Origin: Candidatus Egaibacter danicus
GTDB taxonomy: Bacteria > Pseudomonadota > Gammaproteobacteria > Burkholderiales > Burkholderiaceae
Length of the DNA: 5,642 nt
Direction: 5' to 3'
Assembly: GCA_011391115.1 (NCBI GenBank)
Contig: JAABRC010000146.1
Coordinates: forward strand, 1 to 5,642
Below are positions 1,939 through 4,220 of this stretch, in pieces. The first letter of the stretch is position 1; every line of letters starts with the position of its first letter. A model generated the notes under the pieces. That model did not search any database. It was not told the DNA's origin and worked only from the letters and a program-made list of their open reading frames with translations. The position numbers were made by a program, and so were the translations under genes.

Positions 1939-1994
1939 CCGCCTGTCAGCTAAACGCAAGCAATTCGCCGCGCGCATGGGCGCAAAATGACTTC

Positions 1995-2741: not shown

Positions 2742-4220
2742 ATGCACACGTCTGCGGTCATTGGTACCGGACTGCGGCAGCGTTTGCTGCTGCTGCTGCT
2801 GATACCGTTGATCCTTCTTGCGGGCGTCAGCACCTGGTTCGACTACAGGCAAGCCGGTGATACTGCGTTGCAGCAGGATCGCCAGCTCCTGGGCCTGGTT
2901 CCGCTGCTGGCTGACTCGGTGATTGCCCGCGGTCAGACAGCCATTGACGCGCCGGTACTACTCATGGCGCCCCCTGTGGAAGAGTTCCTCAAGCAGCGCT
3001 CCGGCGTTGCCGCATTTGGTATCGCCAGCCCGGATGGGCAGATGTTGATTGGTGAGTCCTGGCTGGGCGGGGCTTTGCCGTCAACCTGGGAGCCCGAATT
3101 TTCGAGTGAAGTGGAAGATGGCGTGACCTACCGCATTGTCACGCAGCGTGTGCATACGGTGGCAGGCGACCTGGTGATGTACCTGGCCGACGGCTCCGAC
3201 TCGCGGCAACAGTGGCTGCGTCTGGTGCTCCTCAAAGTGGTGTTACCCAATCTGGTGCTGGCCGTTGTCGCCTTGTTCGCCATCAATTGGGCTGTGCGCC
3301 GCGCACTGCGCCCGCTGATCGAACTGAAAGAGGCTGTGGAACGCCGCTCGCCCCGCGATTTGAGTGCGCTGGATACGATGGCCTCGCCCGAGGAAGTGCG
3401 CCCGCTGGTGTCGTCGATCAACCGGTTGCTGGACCTTGTGAACGCCCAGACCGAAAGCCAGCGACGCTTCGTGGCTGACGCTGCGCACCAGTTGCGTACA
3501 CCGCTGGCCGGCTTGCAGGCGCAGGTCGAAGCGTGGGCCCAGGCGGCCAGCACAGCATCACAAGACGGCAAAAATACTCCAAATATGGAGTCAAATAGGC
3601 CTCTATCCCTCGTGGAATATGCGCAACCAGCTATCATTTTGGGAGTGAGTGAGGTTAGCCAGTTGCGGGACGCCGTTCGCCGCACCTCGCAGCTGGCTAA
3701 CCAGCTACTGGCCTTGTCACGCGCTGACGCGCTGGCGCTGGATACGCAACCCATGCAACCCCTTGACTTGAAGGACCTGTGCGAAAGCTTGCTGGAGGTT
3801 CATCTCAACACGGCTACCGCCAAGCACATCGACCTGGGTCTCGACGCCAGATCCATTCATGTCACAGGCCACGAATGGCTGTTGCGCGAAATGGTAGGGA
3901 ACCTGCTGGACAATGCGGTGAAGTACACGTCCGAAGGTGGCACGGTGACGTTGCGTTGTGGCTACAGGACGCCATCCGGGATGGCAGAACGTCCCACCCG
4001 GGCGTTCATCGAAGTGGAGGATGACGGCCCGGGTGTGCCAGTGGACGAGCGTGACAAGGTGCTGGAGCGTTTTTACCGTGTGCCTGGCGTGACGGGCCAG
4101 GGCAACGGGCTGGGGTTAGCGATAGCGCAGGAGATCGCTCACGTGCATGGCAGCGCTTTGGAGGTGGGCGCAGGACCCCATGGACGCGGATTGCGCGTCA
4201 CCATGGTGTTTCCGCCCTAG
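2742..4220 (+). CDS. TctE-like sensor histidine kinase with an insertion in the dimerisation hairpin
   Basis: Inner-membrane sensor of the two-component pair; it should autophosphorylate on His249 and pass the phosphate to Asp51 of the upstream regulator. Order in the 492 residues: membrane helix 1 (about 13-30, with six consecutive Leu); periplasmic domain of the 2CSK_N/TctE type (about 31-157); membrane helix 2 (about 160-183); a HAMP-like linker (185-235); HisKA with FVADAAHQLRTPL (243-255); HATPase_c with N box GNLLDNAVKY (386-395), DDGPG (427-431), ERFYR (442-446) and GNGLGLA (454-460). All catalytic motifs are intact. The odd part is residues 270-305, between the two HisKA helices, where relatives have a short turn; it coincides with a dispersed repeat in the DNA and carries codons rare in its neighbours (AGG, CTA, TCA). 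The ligand is unknown; organic acids are plausible only by family. Three bases separate it from the regulator's stop, so the two are very probably cotranscribed. Confidence 0.95.
   Translation: MHTSAVIGTGLRQRLLLLLLIPLILLAGVSTWFDYRQAGDTALQQDRQLLGLVPLLADSVIARGQTAIDAPVLLMAPPVEEFLKQRSGVAAFGIASPDGQMLIGESWLGGALPSTWEPEFSSEVEDGVTYRIVTQRVHTVAGDLVMYLADGSDSRQQWLRLVLLKVVLPNLVLAVVALFAINWAVRRALRPLIELKEAVERRSPRDLSALDTMASPEEVRPLVSSINRLLDLVNAQTESQRRFVADAAHQLRTPLAGLQAQVEAWAQAASTASQDGKNTPNMESNRPLSLVEYAQPAIILGVSEVSQLRDAVRRTSQLANQLLALSRADALALDTQPMQPLDLKDLCESLLEVHLNTATAKHIDLGLDARSIHVTGHEWLLREMVGNLLDNAVKYTSEGGTVTLRCGYRTPSGMAERPTRAFIEVEDDGPGVPVDERDKVLERFYRVPGVTGQGNGLGLAIAQEIAHVHGSALEVGAGPHGRGLRVTMVFPP
3571..3647 (+). 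repeat. Comamonadaceae-type dispersed palindromic repeat inserted in frame in the kinase gene
   Basis: The stretch is AT-richer than its surroundings and reads through without a stop, encoding about residues 277-302 of the kinase. Its left part holds a perfect hairpin, ACTCCA (3576-3581), loop AATA, TGGAGT (3586-3591). Imperfect terminal inverted repeats are visible: ACTCCAAA at the left end against TTTTGGGAGT at the right end (one indel). Inside are CAAATAGGCCTCTA and CAGCTATCATTTTG, arms of a small non-coding repeat that I recall in many copies between genes of Rhodoferax, Polaromonas and Acidovorax. The central stem typical of those copies (GCGCTT/AAGCGC) is decayed here to CCCTCG/ATGCGC, which would suit an old insertion constrained by coding. 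The exact borders are approximate, and identity with the family rests on memory rather than a search. Confidence 0.68.
3653..3702 (+). other. Long mRNA hairpin inside the histidine kinase coding region
   Basis: GGTTAGCCAG (3653-3662) is the exact reverse complement of CTGGCTAACC (3693-3702). The pairing continues inward through 3669 and 3686 with two G-U wobbles (3663 with 3692, 3668 with 3687), giving a 17-bp stem and a 16-base loop in the transcript. It begins six bases after the repeat insertion ends and encodes the start of the second HisKA helix (VSQLRDAVRRTSQLANQ). No T tract follows, so it is not a canonical terminator. It may affect translation or be fortuitous; no function is claimed. 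Confidence 0.5.

Follow-up and report, generated by a model that had tools for sequence, protein, structure and literature searches.

In the TctE-type sensor histidine kinase of Candidatus Egaibacter danicus, we found that the turn of the HisKA hairpin is extended by a segment that copies, in frame, a ~70-nt repeat dispersed in Comamonadaceae; this copy probably entered the hairpin once, was tolerated there and has presumably been held near the repeat consensus since. The best reading of the family is that of protein-coding repeats resembling the Rickettsia palindromic elements (RPE), with in-gene copies maintained at the DNA level by a process that we infer. Throughout, the window is the whole stretch of 5,642 nucleotides that was analysed.

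An in-frame repeat copy in the kinase hinge

The kinase gene (positions 2742-4220, forward strand; 492 aa) was assigned from its open reading frame, its Pfam-type domains and its nearest relatives, of which the nearest named ones are TctE-like kinases of Rhodoferax and kin. Its 2CSK_N, HisKA (240-267) and HATPase_c domains score above cutoff and HAMP below its cutoff; the frame is uninterrupted, so that the kinase does read straight through the insert, as a first, sequence-only reading of this DNA had stated. Upstream on the same strand lie the gene for the cognate OmpR-type response regulator (TctD-like, 1995-2738; Response_reg and Trans_reg_C) and argB (1048-1938), an open reading frame named from its sequence. 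argB lies upstream of the regulator in related loci too, and a pattern search returned the same order in 75 rows.

We located the in-frame repeat copy at 3582-3652 (forward strand), with the profile match at 3586-3649 and the core at 3588-3636. Against a 72-position profile built from 92 copies, kinase copies left out, the segment scored 63.4 bits (E 2.6e-17 in 2.18 Mb), a score reached by only about 13% of 201 other copies, and 47 of the 49 core positions equal the repeat consensus. The AT-richness and rarer codons attributed to the insert were both borne out: GC is 45.6% over 3582-3649 against 62.5% for the gene outside 3576-3650, a 69-nt stretch at the copy ranks 10th lowest in GC among 470 such stretches of the gene, and codon adaptation, 0.63 over the whole gene, drops to 0.39 in the segment (rank 4 of 469).

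Other details of the earlier description had to be changed. The interval 3549-3656 does enclose the element, but its first ~30 nt precede it. Rather than ~35 extra residues, the window kinase has about 25, as judged from a hinge spacing of 59 against 34 in the shortest Rhodoferax hinges; the ~25 codons absent from the latter (residues ~273-297) correspond to 3558-3632 on the forward strand, with an approximate left border. The right border is uncertain because the right end of the insert overlaps residues I.L..EQ, which also occur in hinges without the insert. The proposed terminal inverted repeats (ACTCC at 3576-3580, GGGAG at 3641-3645) are not shared by the family: 97 aligned copies show near information-free flanks and a conserved core without matching termini, and so lack the terminal inverted repeats that define a MITE. 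Just 3' of the insert, in the region coding for helix 2, we also observed a 15-nt inverted repeat (3653-3667 and 3688-3702; 93% complementary). Rfam gave no matches at the gathering score in the window, and three miRNA matches below threshold start at or after 3639.

A dispersed family of two sequence types

Copy numbers were counted in the genomes of relatives. A 76-nt query taken from the window matched 9 of 14 genomes at E <= 0.01: at least 40 copies were found in each of G001, G003 and G004, with 14 in G007, 11 in G006, 8 in G005, 4 in G035, 2 in G043 and 17 in G171, the kinase copy itself among the last, and none in G002, G008, G140, G063 and G113. The idea that there might be no copies outside this gene is therefore false. 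With a composite query, 60 genomes gave 0-425 first-look candidates each; these are unscored, and at most 15 per genome were scored, which yielded a scored match in 42 of the 60. The repeat is common in Rhodoferax and Acidovorax relatives. Genus searches started from G001 and from G005 covered the same 103 genomes, and the genus of G171 comprised 2. Four plasmid records matched the repeat, the best place of each lying outside any annotated feature, and a phage collection gave no match.

With flagged kinase hinges set aside, 201 distinct copies remained: 147 intergenic ones, 33 within called ORFs and 21 that overlap or abut the ends of genes. This agrees with the sequence-only reading, which described the repeat as intergenic in Comamonadaceae. 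An antisense gene start lies within 15 nt to the left of 42 of the 147 intergenic copies and an antisense gene stop within 15 nt to the right of 57; many copies therefore fill spacers between co-directional genes. In Rhodoferax loci (e.g. L007, L170-L182, from many genomes), inspection by eye showed that the 57-63 nt argB-regulator spacer is an antisense repeat copy, whose reversed left part (GGGCTGGAGGCC) would serve as the Shine-Dalgarno sequence before the regulator ATG. The corresponding spacer of the window (1939-1994, forward strand), also judged by eye, holds no clear repeat.

Two repeat types were distinguished, an Acidovorax type with the palindrome GCGCTT...AAGCGC and a Rhodoferax type with conserved mismatches in the palindrome. 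Over an element of about 70 nt, stem pairing reaches 8.4 of 11 positions in Acidovorax-type copies and 6.2 of 11 in Rhodoferax-type copies, and information content is about 61-67 bits over 84 columns. The description of the repeat as palindromic holds well for the dispersed Acidovorax-type copies and poorly for the window copy, in which the palindrome is weak. RNAalifold returned no consensus fold for either strand of 167 dispersed copies, nor for 67 kinase hinges.

The hinge copy in orthologous kinases

The insertion is not private to the window kinase. All 27 distinct kinases with a DNA match have it in the identical codon phase and at the identical junction, and in all 27 the end of the model lies 9 nt from the LR..RRTS anchor, though hinge spacing varies from 42 to 59. 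Spacing was measured in 92 distinct hinges and falls into a short class (28-42; 27 hinges) and a long class (46-63; 65 hinges). In L195, where the copy is partly deleted, the hinge is 42 and the DNA match remains. As to whether the segment occurs in all orthologues, it proved common across the family, yet it is missing from the 27 short hinges of the 92 and from the few non-Comamonadaceae kinases compared, which have a short turn with no insert (by eye).

The hinge was excluded from a midpoint-rooted tree of 92 kinases, and L033, L034 and L209 were left out as too short. Long hinges occur on both sides of the root, the label requires 8 changes, and many of the short hinges are in nested clades. 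We read this midpoint-rooted tree as suggesting an ancient gain of the hinge copy followed by repeated loss. The hinge peptide drifts between clades, with parts of it (PLA, AI) recurring across orthologues, and sister kinases share derived hinge peptides (e.g. L183-L185), from which we conclude that the copy is inherited within clades.

Two further kinases (L212 and L214, from G034 and G161) have an Ala/Gly-rich HisKA hinge of more than 80 residues past the His that is unrelated to the repeat. Hinges of this much greater length illustrate the tolerance of the HisKA turn.

Retention of the repeat at the nucleotide level

Hinge nucleotides are kept closer to the repeat than the peptide requires. 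When 67 hinges were recoded synonymously with the codon usage of their own gene, the observed repeat score was higher in 48 (z >1.64, up to 6.8). GC-matched recoding gave a similar result: 46 of 67 hinges exceeded the null when scored with the Rhodoferax-type matrix, and 48 of 67 when the better of the two matrices was taken; the window hinge reached z 4.8 against the GC-matched null. As far as checked, no kinase hinge DNA was in the set used to train the matrices. Across hinges, the match to the repeat decays in a graded fashion.

The hinges also follow the repeat type of their own lineage. Of the 48 hinges with z >1.64, 47 were compared (L208 left out): the Acidovorax-type matrix gave the better fit for 12 of 14 from the Acidovorax clade and the Rhodoferax type for 30 of 33 others, so that 42 of 47 agree with their lineage. 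In the 14 Acidovorax-clade sequences the stem register is 62% Watson-Crick paired, against 11-40% in 16 other registers, and inner stem pairs are formed in 4-7 of the 14 at three positions. The remaining, Rhodoferax-type hinges show 34% pairing in this register, which is not distinct. Covariation keeping the kinase stem was rejected as a general feature, the register being supported in the Acidovorax clade (14 sequences) alone.

We also compared the hinges with the genomic abundance of the repeat. In 60 genomes, the median number of unscored first-look candidates was 116.5 where the kinase hinge is repeat-like (n=28) and 3 where it is not (n=32); the one-sided Mann-Whitney p of 1.1e-5 is uncorrected for relatedness and, the genomes being related, too small. 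The link is not strict, because a repeat-like hinge is missing from six genomes with many candidates (80-425; G043, G216, G246, G209, G072, G107), and a hinge with z >1.64 occurs in four with few (1-17; G028, G139, G243, G202).

Repeat copies inside other genes

Of the 33 copies inside ORFs, 26 fall within proteins that have Pfam matches (23 proteins), 3 in ORFs without Pfam matches, 3 in ORFs with stops and 1 in a further kinase hinge (L194). The genes concerned include dnaX, uvrA, mutS, earP, coaBC, lpxB, ispD and a thiL-like gene. For 6 proteins we inspected, residue by residue, the homology flanking the copy on either side. Compared with solved homologues, the net local gain is about 11 residues in ThiL, 8 in EarP and 9-10 in an enoyl-CoA hydratase; copies in CoaBC, MutS and IspD aligned with solved homologues show no clear net insertion, and 'insertion' alone therefore does not describe the family.

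At one shared site each, repeat-like DNA beyond both the synonymous and the GC-matched nulls was found in 23 of 30 CoaBC and 24 of 30 EarP orthologues from Rhodoferax-genus genomes. These panels are the best 30 of 56 genomes with a match for CoaBC and the best 30 of 51 for EarP; both were found with repeat-bearing queries, which biases the fractions upward, and the training set of 167 copies includes one CoaBC and one EarP copy. All 30 CoaBC segments align without length change, so this site looks rewritten rather than enlarged. The two genes agreed in all 25 genomes scored for both, with the copies present in 21 and absent in 4 (G249, G252, G257, G288). The three of these four that were included in the candidate count have 2-3 candidates. 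As to the kinase, G249 and G288 have the short hinge and G257 a long one without a detected copy, and the genus search gave no kinase match in G252.

Several further in-gene copies were seen. In dnaX of three genomes (L219, L273, L161) the repeat lies in the tau linker, a fourth candidate for a shared in-gene site. Repeat-like DNA was also observed in the genes for LpxB, an SbmA-type ABC transporter, IspD and MutS (L160, L158, L163 and L089, respectively), and an amine-oxidase-like gene (L234) holds two copies, at 2467-2529 and 3339-3402, in different reading frames.

Predicted structure of the hinge

AlphaFold2 placed helices at residues 217-274 and 302-328 of the window kinase, with a low-confidence loop between them (residues 275-301; block means 48-53). 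In P0076, a relative without the hinge insert, the helices span 216-270 and 278-304. Both models are monomers, with pTM 0.43 for the window kinase and 0.42 for P0076. In these models the insert seems to lengthen the loop at the tip of the HisKA hairpin and to leave the helices as they are in the hinge-less relative.

Discussion

We propose a single entry of the repeat, at an early stage of the family, into the HisKA hairpin turn of a TctE-type kinase, in the one open sense frame of the repeat consensus (...SNRPLALVEYAQAAI...); its translation would form a flexible loop which the kinase tolerates. A genome-wide process linked to copy number would then keep the in-gene copy close to the consensus of its genome, and the copy would decay or be deleted where the repeat family is lost. 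The simplest such process would be ectopic gene conversion among the dispersed copies. We saw neither a conversion tract nor a conversion event, and selection for a DNA or RNA function, or some other drive, might act instead.

One candidate for the holding process, which we advance tentatively, is a trans-acting, copy-number-dependent homogenisation. It would keep the HisKA hinge, CoaBC and EarP sites near the consensus of the genome, would rewrite coding sequence even where length does not change, and would let all sites be lost together with the family. Examples might be an uptake-like drive, or conversion from a copy that is single-stranded or resembles an oligonucleotide.

It is rather unlikely, in our judgement, that the repeat is a functional DNA or RNA motif, i.e. 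the site of a trans-acting factor in chromosome organisation, DNA uptake or RNA processing, whose nucleotides selection or molecular drive keeps at fixed places, coding or not, and whose sites would all be freed at once by loss of the factor. Such a motif would account for the nucleotide-level retention inside three genes, for the lineage type common to all copies of a genome and for their joint absence; the repeat-like DNA of CoaBC, with no length change, would fit its evolution in place, and the stem register kept in Acidovorax-clade hinges also speaks for it. The information content of the repeat is nevertheless far beyond what known binding or uptake sites need, the Rhodoferax-type hinges have no clear stem, and no consensus fold emerged from either the dispersed copies or the hinges.

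Recurrent independent insertion, in which the repeat targets one sequence over and over and the copy at this junction is a recent, separate arrival in every lineage, would explain both the matching of lineage types and the copy-number link, yet we hold it to be quite improbable: the junction and frame are identical in all the matched kinases, sister kinases have derived hinge peptides in common, the match decays in a graded way, and CoaBC has not changed in length.

The handedness of the DHp loop sets whether a histidine kinase phosphorylates in cis or in trans. A peptide exapted to tune the hairpin (its handedness, cis/trans phosphorylation or partner choice) and kept for that benefit, with the DNA similarity as a by-product, is very improbable, for although the insert sits precisely where the two DHp helices turn into each other and parts of its peptide recur across orthologues, synonymous positions are kept too, the peptides diverge widely, the loop is predicted to be disordered, and several lineages have shortened the hinge while retaining the helices and catalytic motifs; the term 'exapted' in the sequence-only reading, taken as a protein-level benefit, is not supported.

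We thus favour a tolerated in-frame repeat copy maintained at the DNA level, and several known systems can be set beside it. Rickettsia RPE families are palindromes of 100-150 nt. Our repeat is about 70 nt long, belongs to free-living Betaproteobacteria and is mostly intergenic, and its in-gene copies in orthologues, unlike RPE, are kept at synonymous sites and match the repeat type of their lineage. RPE are small dispersed repeats found in frame inside many unrelated protein genes (PMC10969869, PMC3733652), and a Wolbachia counterpart is cited by title in PMC3733652. The Comamonadaceae repeat is likewise present in many copies per genome and in frame inside unrelated protein genes, and its translation in frame at the tip of the HisKA hairpin supports the earlier comparison with RPE, a likeness drawn at the level of description.

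The family has very probably been sighted before. In PMC5217627, the motif pair ATAGCT(N)22CAAAAG is reported with 125 copies, 18 of them in genes, in Polaromonas naphthalenivorans, and GCTTAT(N)5AAGCG with 114 copies, 5 of them in genes, in Acidovorax ebreus. We found a single match to the former in 7 genomes, which is a copy of the Comamonadaceae repeat; the latter has 109 occurrences in G093, 40 in G195 and 174 in G198, against 0-1 in the control. Both pairs are thus very probably earlier sightings of the same repeat family; they stand in that paper as unnamed statistical motifs, and its section 13 gives no analysis of in-gene copies. The Beta-proteobacterial repeat element (BRE) of Bordetella and Comamonadaceae is described in PMC3110155 as about 90 bp long with 69% GC in Bordetella and 4 copies in R. 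ferrireducens, usually intergenic, with some copies entirely within coding sequences. It resembles our repeat in being dispersed, mostly intergenic and occasionally coding, but differs in GC (69% in Bordetella against 45.6% in the window copy), the two being compared by description. REP/BIME elements, with their RAYT transposases, are also short, dispersed, partly palindromic and mainly intergenic; the Comamonadaceae repeat is longer, has two lineage sequence types and has in-frame genic copies. In the literature searched, which covered few subscription papers, we found no description of in-frame copies of this repeat in Comamonadaceae, nor of shared sites within genes at which its nucleotides are retained.

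Descriptions of palindromic repeats in frame within protein genes come mainly from Rickettsia and Wolbachia, which are intracellular. The comparable family reported here belongs to free-living bacteria, many of them culturable, and lies within core genes (dnaX, coaBC, earP, lpxB, ispD, mutS, uvrA and a sensor kinase), and the presence or absence of its in-gene copies varies between related species. If maintenance at the DNA level inside genes is confirmed, a non-protein force that shapes protein sequence could be measured here, and the persistence of small non-autonomous repeats could be tested at defined in-gene sites. If it is true, conserved loop peptides in such proteins should not be read as a sign of protein-level selection.
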